Made by a program: the position numbers and the translations under genes. From assembly GCA_011389555.1 (NCBI GenBank), contig JAABUD010000069.1, forward strand, positions 1 through 55,787: DNA of 55,787 nucleotides, given 5' to 3'. The notes under the pieces are model-generated. The model made no database searches and was not told where the DNA came from. It saw only the letters and a program-made list of their open reading frames with translations. This DNA comes from Desulfotignum sp. Lineage in GTDB: Bacteria; Desulfobacterota; Desulfobacteria; Desulfobacterales; Desulfobacteraceae. Shown one piece after another: positions 4,007-55,713 of the stretch (its first letter is position 1; every line of letters begins with the position of its first letter).

Positions 4007-4596
4007 GTCTGCACGACTCCTTTGAACGTTCTCCGGTGAAACAAGCAGGGACCATGGCGTTGAAGGGCCTGTCTGTGTACTGCGGTGGGATATCCCTTGT
4101 GCCGGTTGAAATGGTACGCGGGAAAGGCCTGGTGCAGGGTGGCCATGATCCGGTCCCGGGTCACTTTGGCGATGATGGACGCGGCTGCTATGGAGATGCT
4201 TCTGCTGTCTCCCTTGATTACGGCCTGCTGGGAGATGTCCATGTCCAGGGGAAACTTGCCGTCCACCAGCAGAAAATCCGGGGCCGTGTCCAGATTGGCG
4301 ACCGCCCGCTTCATGGAAAGGAGTGCGGCGGCCAGGATATGGGTGGCATCGATTTCTTTGTGATCGCATAAGCCCACCCCCACAGCCACGGCATGGGTCA
4401 TGATGACCGGAAAAAAACCGCGGCGCTTTTTTTCCGACAATTGCTTGGAATCCGTGATCCCCGGACAGGAAAAATCCGGGGGAAGGATGACGGCCGCTGA
4501 CACGACAGGGCCGGCAAGGGGTCCCCTGCCGGCCTCGTCAATCCCTGCAATCCATCGAAACCCCTTTTGACGGACCGTCTGTTCGATCTGCCACAT
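4003..4596 (-). CDS. rnhB: Ribonuclease HII
   Basis: 197 residues from ATG 4596; a TTG at 4614 would add six residues and overlap the rplS stop. Neither start has a clear Shine-Dalgarno, consistent with translational coupling to rplS. RNase HII removes ribonucleotides from RNA-DNA hybrids. Conserved acidic active-site motifs are present: GIDEAGRGPLAGPVV at the N terminus (Asp and Glu), LLVDGK (Asp) and the later KGDSRS and IAAASIIAKVTRD segments. HRKGYPT-like HFNRHKGYPTAVHRQAL is the family's C-terminal block. Confidence 0.95.
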   Translation of the reverse strand: MWQIEQTVRQKGFRWIAGIDEAGRGPLAGPVVSAAVILPPDFSCPGITDSKQLSEKKRRGFFPVIMTHAVAVGVGLCDHKEIDATHILAAALLSMKRAVANLDTAPDFLLVDGKFPLDMDISQQAVIKGDSRSISIAAASIIAKVTRDRIMATLHQAFPAYHFNRHKGYPTAVHRQALQRHGPCLFHRRTFKGVVQT

Positions 4597-4606
4597 GGGA
4601 CCGGCA

Positions 4607-4957
4607 TCAGGCAAAACGTTTTTCTTTGATTCTGGCCGCTTTTCCCCGCAGATTGCGCAGGTAGTACAGTTTGGACCGGCGGACCCGCCCTTTGGTCACC
4701 ACTTCGATTTTATCAATGATCGGGGAATGCAGCGGAAAAATACGCTCCACGCCGATGCCGCTGGAAATCTTTCTCACGGTGAACCGGGCCCCGGCCAGCC
4801 CCTTGGTCTTTTTGATGACCACACCCTGAAACACCTGGATCCGTTCTTTGTCCCCTTCCCGGATCTTGACATGCACCTTGATGGTATCTCCTGAATCGAA
4901 TTTCGGAATATCCAGGCGCATCTGTTCTTTTTCCAGTTTTTCTATTACGTTGCTCAT
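4607..4957 (-). CDS. rplS: 50S ribosomal protein L19
   Basis: 116 residues, the usual length. Family motifs are [39 protein letters not shown] and [21 protein letters not shown] (each quoted in part). L19 sits at the 30S-50S interface. A clear Shine-Dalgarno (AGGAGG) precedes the ATG. It follows trmD and the TM1570-like methyltransferase, in the classic rpsP-rimM-trmD-rplS order with one inserted gene. Confidence 0.97.
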
Positions 4958-4991
4958 GTTTCCTCCTGGTTGCTGTCTGATATCTTGAGAA

Positions 4992-5546
4992 TCAGCCGTT
5001 CATCAGTCTGTCTAAGTAAATGGATGCCGCTGATCGGACCGACAGGTGGTTATACTCCCCCGGACCTGTAATCGGGTCCAGCTGCATGTCACATTGGTTT
5101 ATCAGTTCATCCGCCAATCCCCAGGCTGTCCCGAAAACCAGTAAACAGGGCGTGTCTGCCGTCTGTTCCTGTTTCAGGGCATGGGGTGAAATCGTTTTCC
5201 GGTTCATCCGGGCGCTGGTGGCAATGGTGACCACGGGCCGGTTCTGTTCCGCCTGGATCTGCTGGACAGCCGCTTCAAAGGTGTCTGCCACCTGAATCAG
5301 TTCCAGGGCCTGTCTCCGGCACGGGTTCACCCGGGATCCTTCCCCGAGGGTCCAGTGCCGGATCACTTCATGGGCCAGGTCTGCCTGGTCCTGAAAAGGG
5401 GTGATCACATAAACCCCCTTGACCCCGAAGGTCATGGACGCCCTGGCAATATCATGCAAATCGATGGTGGTCAAGGCGGATCCAATGGTTTTGCTCTGTT
5501 TGTTCACCACGGGATAATGGACCAGGGCAATATACAGGTTGTCCAT
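4992..5546 (-). CDS. Putative SPOUT-class RNA methyltransferase (TM1570-like)
   Basis: 184 residues. Starts [14 protein letters not shown] and ends with [21 protein letters not shown]; the (Y/F)NHLSVRSA end with LVFGTAWGL upstream resembles the knotted SAM-binding site of SPOUT methyltransferases. I assign it to the 'putative RNA methyltransferase' family typified by Thermotoga TM1570 (Pfam Methyltrn_RNA_4, from memory), which is often next to or fused with trmD. Here it lies directly downstream of trmD in the same operon. The target nucleotide is unknown. Confidence 0.8.
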
Positions 5547-50363: not shown

Positions 50364-52670
50364 ATGACAGTTTCAATTTTAGATGCCGTCGGCAACACCC
50401 CGGTGGTGGAAATTCAGCGGATGAATCCGAATCCGGGTGTGCGGATGTTTGCCAAACTCGAGTACATGAACCCGGGCGGGTCCATCAAGGACCGGGCCGC
50501 TTTGTACATGATTCAGGCAGGGGAAGCATCCGGCCGGCTCACAAAAGACAAAACCGTGATCGAAGCCACTTCGGGCAACACCGGCATCGGTCTGGCCATG
50601 GTCTGCGCCGTCAAAGGATACCGGCTGGCCCTGACCATGGCGGAGAACGCCAGTGAAGAGCGCAAGCGGATTCTCAAAGCCCGGGGGGCCAAAATCATTC
50701 TGACGCCCCGGCACTTAGGATCGGACGGTGCCATCGAGGAAGCCTATCGCCTGGCCCGGGAGAATCCGGAAAAATATTTCATTACCGACCAGTACAACAA
50801 TCCGGCCAACTGGCAGGCCCACTACCACACCACCGGCCCGGAAATCATGGCCGGGGTTCCGGAAAAACCGGCCAGTGTGGTGGCGACCGTGGGCACATCC
50901 GGCACGTTGATGGGCCTGTCCCGGTATTTCAGGGAGCACAGTCCCGGCACCCGCATTGTGTGTGCGGAACCGTTTCTGGGCCACGGCATCCAGGGGCTCA
51001 AGAACATGAAGGAATCCTATACCCCTGAAATTTATGATAAAACAAAGCTGGATCAGATTCTGAACATCGATGATGCCCTTGCCTTTGACACGGCCCGGCA
51101 ACTGGCGGTCAAAGAAGGGCTGTTTGTGGGCATGAGTTCCGGTGCAGCCATGGCCGCGGCCATCCAGGAGGCGCAAACCCTTGAAAAAGGGGTATTGGTG
51201 GTGATTTTTCCGGATTCCGGGGAGCGGTATCTGTCCACGTCCCTTTTTTCGGTACAGCAGAAAGTACGCCTGCATCTGTTCGATACCCGAAGCGGGAAAA
51301 AACAGCCGTTCAAATCGGTGAAACCGGATACCGTCTCCATTTACACCTGCGGTCCCACTGTGTATCAGCGCCTGAATCCCGGCAGTTTCAGGCGGTATGT
51401 GTTCACCGACCTGCTGGTGCGGTATTTTGCGTTTCACAACATCGATGTCAACCATGTGATCAATATCACGGATTACGATGACCGCACCATTGACGGGGCT
51501 GTCCGGGCCGGCCAGGACCTGGAGGCGTTTACGCGCCCGTATATCCAGGTGTTTCATCAGGACCTGCAGCGGTTGAAAATCCGGCCGGCCCAGGCGTTTC
51601 CCCGGGTGTCGGCACATTTTGCCGACATGGCGGATCTGACCCGGAAGCTGCTGGACAAAGGATATGCTTATGAAAAACTGCATTCCGTGTATTTTGATAT
51701 CTCAAAAGTGGCGGAATACGGACATCTGTCCAAGATGGATATCCAGAAAATCCGGGTGGGCGCCACCGTGGACCTGGATGAATATGAAAAACTCAATCCC
51801 CGGGATTTCACCCTGTTCAAGCGGGTCCGGTTGTCGGAGCTGCGCCGGGGCATCGGTGTGAAAACCGAATGGGGACAGGTCCGGCCGTCGCTGCACCTGC
51901 AATGTGCCACCTTGTCCATGCTGTTTCTAGGGGTGCCTTTTGACATGCATACCGGCAGCCGGGAACTGGTGTTTCCCCATCATGAAAATGAACGGGCCAT
52001 TGCCCGGGCCGTTAAAGACCGGGAACTGGCCAATGTGTGGCTGCATTGTGATCCCGTGCAGTATGACGGATCTTTGGGCGCGGCATCCATCCATGACCTG
52101 ACCCTGGATACGCTGGCGGAACAAGGATGGGATGACGGAACCATCCGGTTCTGGCTGTTGTCCGGGCATTACCGCCGGGGCCTGATGCTGTCTGAACAGT
52201 CCCTGGCCGATGCCCGGGCCACCCGGAACCGCATCAACCGGTGTATTGCTTTACTGGAGCGGATCCGGTCCGACGGGGTCGCTGCGGCGGAGTCGCCCCG
52301 TGGGGAGATCGATCAGCTGATGTATGATATCCGCCAGGGCATTTTGACGGCCCTGGCCGATGATTTGAAAGTTTCCGGAGCCCTGGCCGCCCTGCTGGGC
52401 GGAATCAAAACAATCAACACCCGGATCAGTCAGCACAAAATTGATGGCCGGGACGCGGACCGCATCCTGACCGGATTGCAGGAAATGGACCGGATTTTTC
52501 AGGTGTGTGAATTCAATCAGGAACCCATCTGTTCGGAGCCGGTGAAAGACCTGCTCCGGCAACGGCGGGCGGCCCGGGAAAAAAAAGACTGGGCCACGGC
52601 GGATCAACTCAGGGATCAGCTGGTTGCCATGGGGATTTCCGTTCATGACCAGAAAGTGGAGGTAAACTGA
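50364..52670 (+). CDS. Cysteine synthase fused to a degenerate cysteinyl-tRNA synthetase-like domain
   Basis: 768 residues from ATG 50364 (AAAGGA upstream). Residues 1-300 are an O-acetylserine sulfhydrylase (CysK/CysM) with PLP-Lys 42 (GGSIKDRAA), SGNTG 70-74 and VGTSG 176-180. Residues 305-768 align with CysRS: CGPTVY (329-334), HYR-containing GHYRRGL, C514 and HHENE (539-543) keep zinc ligands. But the HIGH site reads NPGS (338-341), and where KMSKSLG should be the sequence is YDGSLG (567-572), i.e. KMSK is deleted. Aminoacylation activity is therefore doubtful. A cysteine-handling enzyme other than a tRNA synthetase is suggested; no intact cysS is visible in the window. Confidence 0.9.
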   Translation: MTVSILDAVGNTPVVEIQRMNPNPGVRMFAKLEYMNPGGSIKDRAALYMIQAGEASGRLTKDKTVIEATSGNTGIGLAMVCAVKGYRLALTMAENASEERKRILKARGAKIILTPRHLGSDGAIEEAYRLARENPEKYFITDQYNNPANWQAHYHTTGPEIMAGVPEKPASVVATVGTSGTLMGLSRYFREHSPGTRIVCAEPFLGHGIQGLKNMKESYTPEIYDKTKLDQILNIDDALAFDTARQLAVKEGLFVGMSSGAAMAAAIQEAQTLEKGVLVVIFPDSGERYLSTSLFSVQQKVRLHLFDTRSGKKQPFKSVKPDTVSIYTCGPTVYQRLNPGSFRRYVFTDLLVRYFAFHNIDVNHVINITDYDDRTIDGAVRAGQDLEAFTRPYIQVFHQDLQRLKIRPAQAFPRVSAHFADMADLTRKLLDKGYAYEKLHSVYFDISKVAEYGHLSKMDIQKIRVGATVDLDEYEKLNPRDFTLFKRVRLSELRRGIGVKTEWGQVRPSLHLQCATLSMLFLGVPFDMHTGSRELVFPHHENERAIARAVKDRELANVWLHCDPVQYDGSLGAASIHDLTLDTLAEQGWDDGTIRFWLLSGHYRRGLMLSEQSLADARATRNRINRCIALLERIRSDGVAAAESPRGEIDQLMYDIRQGILTALADDLKVSGALAALLGGIKTINTRISQHKIDGRDADRILTGLQEMDRIFQVCEFNQEPICSEPVKDLLRQRRAAREKKDWATADQLRDQLVAMGISVHDQKVEVN

Positions 52671-53629
52671 TGGCGGTGTTGTTTTTCCCTTTTTCCCATG
52701 TCAATGAAACCCAGCGGACTACGCTGACCGCTTTTTTCCCGCAGTTTGTGTTTCTGCCGCTGGCCCCGGATCTGAACCAGGATCCGCAGATGGTGCCGCT
52801 GGTGAAAAACCGGACCGCGGTTCCGGTGTTTTCTTCAGACACCCGCCTGGCTCAAGTGTCGTCACAGGTCTCTGCCTGGATGAACTGGGCGTCGCTGCAC
52901 CAGGGAAATGAACAGAATCTGAAAACCCTGATCCGGGAAAATCCCTATACGACGGATCATCCGGGACCGGCCGCCATCGGGTCGGAGCTGCGGGCCCGAA
53001 TGGCCGGGACACCGGAAAATGGCCGGGAAAATTTGAAACTGGCGGATCCGCTGCTGTTTTCACTCATCGCCAAACGCACGGATGCCGGAAACGAAGCCAC
53101 TGACCAGGCCATGGCCGGGCTGGAAAAAAAGCGGGCGTGTCTGTTCTCTGAACTGCGGGGGGATCCGGATCGGTTGGCACCCAAACACAATACCTTTCCG
53201 GGGCCGGATCCGGGAGCGGTCATGACCCGGGAACGGATCCGGGCCTGGGCCGCCTGCGCCCGGGAAGCCGGGCTGTTTTCCGAACCCGCTTTCCGGATAT
53301 TTGTGACCACCAGTGGTGCCGTGTTTGACCGGGTTGCGGCAAATGGAAACCGGGTTATATATGCCCTTGACATTGATGCCATAAAGGTGCATGAAGGTGG
53401 ATGTGTCCATCAGCCGGACTGGCACAGGCGGGTATCGACCCTGCTGGATTCCCTGGCCGCCGGACCGGTGGACGGGATACAGGCCCGGAACACCCTGGCC
53501 GCCATGGATGATTCCTGCGCCCTGACCGGCCGCATTCAGGCCCGGATGGTGGAAGGCCCGGACCTGGAAAGAAAGCTGAATCTGCCCGGCACCCGGTTGC
53601 TGATATGCCGGGTGACATTAAAACCATAA
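52670..53629 (+). CDS. Uncharacterised protein translationally coupled to the cysteine synthase fusion
   Basis: 319 residues, unrecognised. Its ATG overlaps the preceding TGA by one base. The N terminus (VLFFPFSHVNETQRTTLTAFFPQFVFLPL) is hydrophobic but reads as beta-strands rather than a signal peptide. The middle is helical and charged, with FSLIAKRTDAGNEATDQAM and a Pro/Asp-rich segment; the last third contains FRIFVTTSGAVFDRV and LDIDAIKVHEGG. No transmembrane helix, cysteine cluster or nucleotide loop. The coupling suggests a partner for the enzyme before it. Function unknown. Confidence 0.75.
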   Translation: MAVLFFPFSHVNETQRTTLTAFFPQFVFLPLAPDLNQDPQMVPLVKNRTAVPVFSSDTRLAQVSSQVSAWMNWASLHQGNEQNLKTLIRENPYTTDHPGPAAIGSELRARMAGTPENGRENLKLADPLLFSLIAKRTDAGNEATDQAMAGLEKKRACLFSELRGDPDRLAPKHNTFPGPDPGAVMTRERIRAWAACAREAGLFSEPAFRIFVTTSGAVFDRVAANGNRVIYALDIDAIKVHEGGCVHQPDWHRRVSTLLDSLAAGPVDGIQARNTLAAMDDSCALTGRIQARMVEGPDLERKLNLPGTRLLICRVTLKP

Positions 53630-54055: not shown

Positions 54056-54817
54056 TCAGAATCTCAGTGACAGGCAGCTGAGCCCTCCGTCCAGCTTCTG
54101 AAATTCAGACACATCCACAGCCAGGGTGTCATGGCCATGGGATTCAATCAGGGATCGGGTTTTTTCAAATCCGGCCGGAACCAGCACCCGGTCATTGATC
54201 CACACGCTGTTGGCGGCATACGCTTCGGAATCATCCACCGGAAGAATCGTGAAATCAGAAAATTCCGGTTGGGAGATAAACTCCCCCCAGGCCAGCAGAC
54301 AATTGTTTTCCAGATACGACACCCCGGTTTTCAAATGAAGCACCGAGGTCAGTGCAATGGCGGACACGGTGTATCCATAAGGAGCCAGAAGCTGTTCCAG
54401 CTGTTGAATCCCGGCGGTATTGGTCCGGCCGGACAGCCCCACATAAAAATGCTTGTCAACCTGCATCACATCTCCGGCGTCCAGGGTGCCCGGTGAGGTG
54501 ATTTCCATGACAGGGCGGTCGAAGTGCTGCATGGCCCGGGTCACGGCCCGGGTTTCCCCCTGCCGGGACGGGTGTCCGGGACGGGTGATCACCACGCATT
54601 TTTTGGTGACCAGGCAGGTGTCTTCGATAAATGTGGAATCCGGAAACGCGTCATCGGGTTCCAGCACTGTCACGGACAGACCGCAGCGTGTCAATGCGTC
54701 AATGTAGTGCGCATGCTGCCGGCATGCACGCGCAAAATCCGGTGTGCCCAGGTCGGTGTGGCGGATGCCGTGGACCAGGTTCGGGCAGGGGGATTTGACC
54801 ATGGCAGAGGTGAACAT
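54056..54817 (-). CDS. ddaH: Dimethylarginine dimethylaminohydrolase (amidinotransferase fold)
   Basis: 253 residues. Guanidino-modifying enzyme fold with PDSTFIEDTCLV, GTLDAGDVMQ, a catalytic His in TSVLHLKTGVSYLEN and the nucleophilic Cys 248 in LDGGLSCLSLRF at the C terminus. That combination fits DDAH, which hydrolyses methylarginine or arginine to citrulline and an amine; a related arginine deiminase role is possible. AAAAGGAG precedes the ATG. Confidence 0.85.
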   Translation of the reverse strand: MFTSAMVKSPCPNLVHGIRHTDLGTPDFARACRQHAHYIDALTRCGLSVTVLEPDDAFPDSTFIEDTCLVTKKCVVITRPGHPSRQGETRAVTRAMQHFDRPVMEITSPGTLDAGDVMQVDKHFYVGLSGRTNTAGIQQLEQLLAPYGYTVSAIALTSVLHLKTGVSYLENNCLLAWGEFISQPEFSDFTILPVDDSEAYAANSVWINDRVLVPAGFEKTRSLIESHGHDTLAVDVSEFQKLDGGLSCLSLRF

Positions 54818-54831
54818 GTGTGAATCTCCTT

Positions 54832-55713
54832 TTATGCGGAAGTCTGAGCCGGCCGGGTGGTCAGATAGACACCGGACAGAACCAGGATCGCACCCACGGC
54901 CAGGGCCGGGGTCACGGGTTCGTTTAAAATGATAAATGACAGCACCACGGCGCTGACAGGAACAAAATTGATAAAAACCCCGGCCCGGGTGGGGCCGATT
55001 TTCTGAATGCCTTGATAATACCAGAAAAATCCCAGCACCGTGCCGAAAAAACCCAGGTAGAAAAAACCGGCCCAGTGCTGCAGGGTATACCCGGGCAGGG
55101 CCTGGAACAGTCCGTCATACACGGCCGGAAAAAACAGCATCACCGTCCCGGCCACAGAGGAGTAACAGACAGCGGCCACCGGTGACAGGGCCGTCATCAT
55201 GGGTTTGGCCAGTAGGGAATAGGAGACCCACGACACCACACATCCTAAAATGGCCAGCTCGCCGGCACCGATGCCGGTCTGGAACAAAATCCACGGATGT
55301 CCGTTGGAAATAATGGTCATGGCCCCGCTCACCGACAGAACCAGCCCGAGAATTTTGCCCGGTGTCAGCGATTCTTTGAACAAAAGGGCTGAAAACACAC
55401 TGATGAAGATCGGGTTGGTGGCGATGATCAAAGAGGCCCGGTTGGCGTTGATATAGTTCAGCCCGGTGAAGAAAAACAGGTTATAGGCAAAAATTCCGGT
55501 CAGGCCGGACAGCACAATCCAGATGATGTGAGATGCCTGGATTCGGGGCAGTCGGCCTTCCATGCGCCGGGTCAGCAGCAGCAGGAAAATCGATGCAATG
55601 GTAAACCGCAGAAAAGCGGCACATGAAGGGGAGACCTGTCCAGCCAGCTGTTTGCCGGCAATAAAGGTCCCGCCCCAGAAAAAAGCGGTTAAAAACAGTT
55701 TGACAAAGGTCAC
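54832..55713 (-). CDS. DMT-superfamily transporter (EamA)
   Basis: 293 residues with ten hydrophobic helices, two EamA repeats: FFWGGTFIAGKQLAG ... FTGLNYINANRASLI in the first half, FFYLGFFGTVLGFFWYYQGIQKIGPTRAG in the second (partly quoted). Starts with GTG at 55713, preceded by AAAGGA. Exporters of this kind move amino acids or metabolites outward. It is 14 bases upstream of the ddaH start, so it may export or import the substrate or product of that enzyme. No partner beyond 55713 is visible; the final 74 bases hold no gene. Confidence 0.92.
   Translation of the reverse strand: MTFVKLFLTAFFWGGTFIAGKQLAGQVSPSCAAFLRFTIASIFLLLLTRRMEGRLPRIQASHIIWIVLSGLTGIFAYNLFFFTGLNYINANRASLIIATNPIFISVFSALLFKESLTPGKILGLVLSVSGAMTIISNGHPWILFQTGIGAGELAILGCVVSWVSYSLLAKPMMTALSPVAAVCYSSVAGTVMLFFPAVYDGLFQALPGYTLQHWAGFFYLGFFGTVLGFFWYYQGIQKIGPTRAGVFINFVPVSAVVLSFIILNEPVTPALAVGAILVLSGVYLTTRPAQTSA

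Follow-up and report, generated by a model that had tools for sequence, protein, structure and literature searches.

Why should an enzyme that makes cysteine carry a cysteinyl-tRNA synthetase (CysRS) whose activation motifs are gone? The question is raised by a stretch of 55,787 nucleotides from Desulfotignum sp. (contig JAABUD010000069.1 of assembly GCA_011389555.1; hereafter the window), in which a single open reading frame on the plus strand (50364-52670; ATG at 50364, stop TGA at 52668-52670) encodes a protein of 768 residues that joins a cysteine synthase to a CysRS-like domain. All features of the fusion described below lie on this strand. We interpret the protein as a cysteine synthase that carries its own pseudo-CysRS, a domain that would bind tRNA-Cys and thereby control the synthase to which it is fused, a reading to which we assign a probability of roughly 0.45. 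Its parts differ in strength: from the residues retained, binding of tRNA-Cys by the pseudo-CysRS half appears likely, whereas regulation of the fused synthase by the bound tRNA would fall slightly short of an even bet.

The sequence-only reading of this DNA had described an intact cysteine synthase dependent on pyridoxal 5'-phosphate (PLP) joined to a CysRS-like domain, a description borne out by the single frame, by the Pfam matches (PALP at residues 5-284, tRNA-synt_1e at 316-618 and CysS_C, the anticodon domain, at 723-764) and by the conserved PLP residues. Within the synthase domain (residues 1-295; 50364-51248), K42, TSGNTG (69-74), GT.GT (177-181) and S258/S259, which from the CysK/CysM literature we take to be the PLP site, are invariant in 59 aligned fusions, the PLP-binding lysine and phosphate loop of the window protein among them. 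The domain scores 349 bits with TIGR01136, the cysKM subfamily model of NCBIfam (cut-off 344). The whole N-terminal half and its PLP site resemble CysK/CysM (2bhs, E. coli CysM; 3dwg, M. tuberculosis CysM), from which the fusion differs by missing both the cysK and the cysM equivalog cut-offs and by carrying the CysRS-like half. In alignment, Lys213 stands opposite an Arg of M. tuberculosis CysM that presumably binds the phosphate of O-phosphoserine. A structure model of the fusion, with a predicted local distance difference test score (pLDDT) of 85 and a predicted template modelling score (pTM) of 0.67, gave Foldseek matches to CysM (2bhs, TMt 0.88), to CysRS (8qhp, TMt 0.91; 1u0b, TMt 0.82) and to the CysRS paralogue MshC (3c8z, TMt 0.85).

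When 84,980 species genomes were scanned, at least 573 relatives were recorded, and the best 80 of them, together with two IMG/VR contigs, gave 82 loci. The full-length fusion is present in 80 of these, the other two being cut by a contig end, and a pseudogene, a chance product or an assembly artefact is therefore ruled out. The titles of the best 80 name Desulfobacterales and genera of that order, Desulfarculaceae, Deltaproteobacteria and unplaced Proteobacteria, and the cultured species among them include Desulfobacter vibrioformis, Desulfocicer vacuolatum, Desulfonema magnum and Desulfamplus magnetovallimortis; the closest named relative in this set is Desulfotignum sp. (locus L075; 87% identity over the CysRS-like part, 90% over the whole protein). 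At family level, one or the other kind of match was found in 84 of 86 genomes. In a sample of 395 genomes of the phylum, 151 gave a match at 1e-68, a fusion frame being called by a length of at least 629 residues in genomes without a fetched sequence; removal of three single CysRS (G360, G131 and G398) and addition of a missed fusion genome (G158) corrects the fusion count to about 149 of 395. Such fusions occur in many sulfate reducers and in bacteria related to them. We found the fusion described nowhere in the literature searched, with subscription papers and supplements outside that search. CysRS paralogues are tabulated as MshC and CysRS* in the part of PMC9437257 available to us, and the fusion does not appear in the consulted portions of PMC2922099 or PMC5424206.

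The CysRS-like half (residues 303-764; 51270-52655) shares with CysS (E. coli 1li5 and 1u0b; 8qhp) the fold, CGPT, C209, HHENE and an anticodon domain with the contacts to G34, and differs from it in lacking HIGH and KMSKS, in having a cysteine synthase attached and a true CysS alongside, and in scoring 306 bits with TIGR00435, below the cut-off of 340. To place these losses we collected 203 fusion frames (201 with the synthase half, two at contig ends), which reduce to 173 distinct CysRS-like domains, and compared them in E. coli numbering with 19 true CysRS; the sample leans to Desulfobacterales, with 74 of the 173 domains coming from the best 82 loci. In the window protein the HIGH site reads NPGS (from N338; 51375-51386), as the sequence-only reading had it, and the two His of the motif are absent. 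Most fusion relatives have [HND][LIP]Gx at this site; H40 of E. coli, the second His, persists in 13 domains and is gone in 160, and H37 and H40 occur together in only two. The KIIK position reads RTID (51483-51494), with R374 for K73 and D377 for K76. At the KMSKS position (52062-52079), where a deletion had been proposed, the motif is indeed gone, but YDGSLG stands in its place, a replaced or degenerate site and not a clean deletion. KMS[KR] is intact in 19 of the 173 domains, and none combines H37 and H40 with K266 and K/R269. The loss first noticed in one protein is thus common to its homologues, even though some fusion relatives do pass the TIGR00435 cut-off.

In a tree built from 100 fusion representatives sharing less than 70% identity and from 20 true CysRS (the 19 and that of E. 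coli), the true CysRS lie together on one side of a branch with 99% support. K266 with K/R269 occurs in 20 representatives that are scattered over the tree, a pattern requiring 11 changes, at least seven of them forced by well supported branches; we therefore take the fusion to be old and its active site to have been worn away repeatedly. A recent loss in a single genome is ruled out by the age of the fusion and its spread across the phylum. The window's genome encodes, on another contig, the true CysRS that the sequence-only reading had told us to look for (G000:C97; L001 1006-2478, minus strand): 490 residues, HIGH and KMSKS intact, and 33% identical to the CysRS-like half. When the CysS model was run against 42 fusion genomes, 40 proved to have a separate CysS, and the two without one, G016 and G019, are fragmented assemblies of 380 and 610 contigs. 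One of the 40, G028, might have relied on the fusion as its sole CysRS; this was ruled out, as its cysS spans both ends of the single contig. With HIGH and KMSK both lost and a true CysRS present, the CysRS-like half probably does not charge tRNA, as had been proposed from the first look at the sequence.

What has been kept points elsewhere. The anticodon-binding domain (CysS_C; PF23493, E 4.1e-12; 52530-52655) of the window protein carries the equivalents of the G34 contacts as R734, R738, W743 and D747. According to the part of a 2025 paper available to us, which cites Hauenstein et al. 2004, G34 of tRNA-Cys is contacted by Arg427, Asp436 and Trp432, and in 1u0b Asp436 and Arg423 join a water network at G34, the contact of Arg423 being made through water (PMC12684709). 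Across the 173 domains, R423, D436, R439 and D451 are present in every one and R427 in 171, and position 432 is always aromatic (W in 131, F in 35, Y in seven). We then asked which positions invariant in 18 of the 19 true CysRS and in E. coli (the very diverged L230 being excluded) persist in 95% or more of the 100 representatives. The anticodon domain (403-461) keeps 8 of 9 such positions; elsewhere the figures are 4 of 22 for residues 1-60 (the HIGH side), 3 of 20 for 61-120, 14 of 26 for 121-200, 9 of 30 for 201-245 (the zinc site), 1 of 15 for 246-290 (KMSKS) and 3 of 13 for 291-402. Inside the anticodon domain the four G34-linked residues rank high (p=0.0004 in 200,000 random draws, a figure that ignores the relatedness of the sequences), and all 16 members without C28 or C209 retain R427, an aromatic residue at 432, D436 and D451. 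The retention of these positions, even where the zinc ligands C28 or C209 have gone, argues that selection protects the reading of tRNA to a greater degree than the binding of cysteine or adenylation. The possibility that the CysRS-like domain has simply abandoned tRNA is contradicted by the same data, as the anticodon-reading residues are its best conserved part.

The zinc and cysteine side of the domain, described in the sequence-only reading as remaining, is present but has not escaped change. Using what we take to be the zinc ligand numbering of E. coli CysRS, the window protein has equivalents of all four ligands: C329 for C28 (51348-51350), within CGPT, C514 for C209 (51903-51905) and, in the HHENE of FPHHENE (51978-51992), H539 for H234 and E543 for E238. 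Among the 173 domains C28 is kept in 158, C209 in 164, H234 in all and E238 in 138; C28 or C209 is missing in 16 and E238 in 35. E. coli W205 corresponds to Leu510 in the window protein (W in 124 domains, L in 49), and the cysteine side of the pocket is therefore not untouched. Binding of cysteine by this half, which had also been proposed, is plausible for most members from these residues and would not be universal.

Two further sets of positions distinguish the fusions. Compared with true CysRS, the near-invariant fusion-specific positions of the 100 representatives include T43R, D141S, M186R and Y283G, and there are fusion-specific insertions of a Tyr after 173 and a Gly after 193. Residues 463-496 (GATVDLDEYEK...DFTLFKRVRLSELRRG; 51750-51851) contain invariant columns of the fusion alignments and fusion-specific positions, and within this strongly conserved stretch residues 464-477 have a model pLDDT below 50. 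We regard residues 463-496 as a candidate interface between the synthase and the CysRS-like halves.

Immediately downstream lies a partner gene encoding 319 residues (52670-53629, plus strand), the start of which overlaps the fusion stop (TGATG). A homologue stands downstream of the fusion in 67 of the 82 loci, at a distance of no more than 360 bases in 66 of them, and seven of the other 15 loci leave no room for one; among the 67, the genes overlap by a four-base ATGA in 27 and by TGATG in three. In L163 a homologue lies directly upstream (4230-5297; hhalign probability 99.3), and in G140, G176, G205, G233 and G354 the partner is close upstream by coordinates. No member of the family tried, the window protein included, gave a Pfam or NCBIfam match above cut-off, and a structure model (pLDDT 85, pTM 0.82) found no PDB match at E<=0.001; as modelled, its fold is apparently new. 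The partner profile matches 93 of the 395 genomes of the phylum sample. Of these, 86 belong to the initial list of 148 fusion genomes (Fisher p=1.8e-37, with shared ancestry ignored), and addition of G158 brings the count to 87 of 149. The other six are G271, G280, G325, G346 and G469, in each of which a single CysRS was found, and G151, whose CysRS fragments may or may not belong to a fusion. The remaining 62 of the 148 fusion genomes gave no partner hit, so that the fusion can do without it.

We envision the following mechanism. The N-terminal half would be a CysK/CysM-type PLP enzyme producing cysteine, and the C-terminal half a descendant of CysRS that has lost the motifs of ATP-dependent activation (nearly every member lacks the complete HIGH, and most lack KMSKS) while it would still read the GCA anticodon of tRNA-Cys. 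Most members also keep the zinc and cysteine pocket, with which the domain could distinguish charged from uncharged tRNA-Cys. Depending on whether the 3' end of the tRNA carries cysteine, or on free cysteine in the old pocket, the synthase would be switched up or down, and cysteine production would follow the charging state of tRNA-Cys. Of the roles named in the sequence-only reading, sensing comes closest, the sensed ligand being more likely tRNA-Cys, with or without its cysteine. More tentatively, the fusion may be a widespread bacterial metabolic enzyme gated directly by tRNA-Cys and its aminoacylation, a counterpart of the pseudo-synthetase sensor of GCN2 that has cysteine synthesis as its output and is assisted in many lineages by the partner of new fold. 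If this is true, a direct protein-tRNA switch would couple cysteine synthesis to translation in bacteria many of which live at high sulfide. The family would also be a natural experiment in which the chemistry of a synthetase was lost repeatedly and its tRNA-reading surface kept, and what a dead synthetase is for becomes directly testable. There is a practical side as well: naming by model score alone could label fusions as CysRS, since some pass the curated cut-off and none has the complete motif pair.

Several observations weigh against control by tRNA-Cys. The relative orientation of the two halves is uncertain in the model (pTM 0.67). Many positions of true CysRS beyond the anticodon domain are lost, together with W458 near the C-terminus, and tRNA binding may be altered; the conserved Arg and Asp of a small domain can also be structural. 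The complete set of zinc ligands, found in 131 of the 173 domains, is also compatible with a pure cysteine sensor. A search for a tRNA-Cys gene close to the fusion found none, either in the window or in the 49 loci scanned. The window's genome has an ordinary cysteine synthase adjoining a cysE-like gene on contig C59 (161 bits, under the cut-off of the cysE model), which makes the fusion an additional cysteine synthase. Some members may still bind ATP, as KMS[KR] is intact in 19 domains and D229 is kept in all 19 of them. Finally, in the available part of Akaike et al. 2017 (PMC5660078), E. coli CysRS retains protein-synthesis potential in a cell-free assay when K266, K269 or both are replaced by Ala; loss of KMSK alone is therefore no proof that charging has been lost, and our argument needs HIGH and KMSK together.

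The same evidence bears on other explanations. A sensor of free cysteine modelled on HisZ, in which the zinc pocket would bind cysteine and feedback-inhibit the synthase and the anticodon domain would be a structural leftover, is unlikely; it draws on the HisZ precedent, on the complete ligand set of most members with H234 in all, and on the synthase itself, which would be a sensible control point in sulfide-rich cells, yet it must accommodate the members that have lost C28, C209 or E238 and the 49, the window protein included, with Leu for W205, and it leaves unexplained why the G34 contacts are the part best kept. Conservation of those contacts next to an intact synthase on the same chain would also suit a docking domain that binds tRNA-Cys, and perhaps CysRS, and hands new cysteine to the charging machinery. 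We consider such channelling rather improbable: a small diffusible amino acid would not need a charging-dead domain, and cysS lies on another contig here and far from the fusion in the single-contig genomes whose coordinates were compared. Less probable still is a transferase that would take cysteine from charged tRNA into another molecule, possibly with the partner. Cyclodipeptide synthases, which have a class-I fold without HIGH and use aminoacyl-tRNA as substrate (PMC2922099, in the part consulted), set a precedent, and the strong co-occurrence with a partner lacking a known fold and the substitutions T43R, M186R and Y283G could be read in its favour. Against it, no catalytic nucleophile was identified in the fusion, the genomes without a partner hit are many, and the fused cysteine synthase would be of no direct help.

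Readings that retain the chemistry of CysRS fare worse. That the fusion is a second, unusual CysRS still charging tRNA-Cys, at least in the members with KMS[KR], is a long shot; the 19 domains with KMS[KR] and D229, the preserved anticodon domain and the cell-free activity of the E. coli K266A/K269A mutants (PMC5660078, in the part consulted) would allow it, but the second HIGH His is gone almost throughout, no member has the complete motif pair, a true CysRS accompanies the fusion in 40 of 42 genomes, and the dispersed occurrence of K266 with K/R269 forces at least seven changes on the tree. Two activities raised in the sequence-only reading find little room. An MshC-like or other ATP-dependent cysteine ligase is suggested by MshC being a CysRS paralogue of the same fold (3c8z), but the ATP motifs are lost, the MshC model TIGR03447 gives 165 bits against a cut-off of 485, and MshC chains have no match to the anticodon part, the best-kept part of the fusion; we regard it as very improbable. 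The same low standing falls to a cysteine persulfide synthase of the type described by Akaike and colleagues. In the part of that paper available to us, E. coli CysRS needs neither ATP nor tRNA to form persulfides, and a zinc-cysteine mutant of CARS2 is still active (PMC5660078); mutation of K73, K76, K266 or K269, however, markedly lowers it, and all four are absent from the window protein, while the 100 representatives keep K73 in 57%, K76 in 7%, K266 in 52% and K269 in 3%.

Control by tRNA-Cys, the reading we prefer, has partial counterparts. In GCN2 a pseudo-HisRS, an inactive synthetase domain, is joined to an enzyme and appears to sense the charging of tRNA; the fusion would work alike, whereas GCN2 is a eukaryotic kinase with a class II domain and a different output. 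HisZ, which regulates HisG, has a class II fold and is a separate subunit, resembles the fusion in being a synthetase copy without complete adenylation motifs that is tied to the pathway of its own amino acid, a likeness of analogy and not of homology. MshC lacks an anticodon domain, and its PDB chains (413-414 residues) align with the window domain no further than residue 330; the parts retained and lost are thus reversed in the fusion. From the part of PMC9437257 available to us, HisZ is a paralogue of HisRS that does not adenylate and through which histidine synthesis is inhibited, MshC is an ATP-dependent ligase, and CysRS*, a CysRS paralogue from the same bacterial order as the fusion, Desulfobacterales, is active, charges SelC* and has no anticodon domain. 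The fusion keeps that domain where CysRS* and MshC do not, which we count in favour of tRNA reading.

Some members depart from the common form. Two genomes, G058 and G050, encode second, more diverged fusion copies (L233 and L234, with 41% and 40% identity to the window domain) besides the standard fusion, and G081 has on contig C297 the extra, very diverged CysRS-like protein L230, which forms a long branch, has Asn for the second HIGH His and retains an anticodon domain. In genus g3 (G005, G007, G008, G009 and G011) the fusion frames are 817-880 residues long and the match to the CysRS half is broken or over-long, suggesting lineage-specific insertions. In the single-contig genome G099 (C1:2737672-2739059) two frames (704 and 211 residues) share the CysRS-like half between them, owing to a frameshift or a sequencing error. 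The two IMG/VR viral contigs, L155 and L156, carry fusions that are 41% identical, and L155 groups in the tree with genomes of family f59; they are possibly bacterial DNA within the viral collection.

A constant neighbourhood outside the order was ruled out, no neighbour being common to all 20 distant contexts when read by eye. Among related genomes some neighbours, likewise named by eye, do recur: a GroEL-like and an epimerase-like gene in L158, L159 and L161, and a ketopantoate-reductase-like gene in L172, L173 and L176. In the window itself, the minus strand at 54056-54817 and 54832-55713 encodes an amidinotransferase/ADI-like protein (PF02274, PF19420) beside an EamA transporter.

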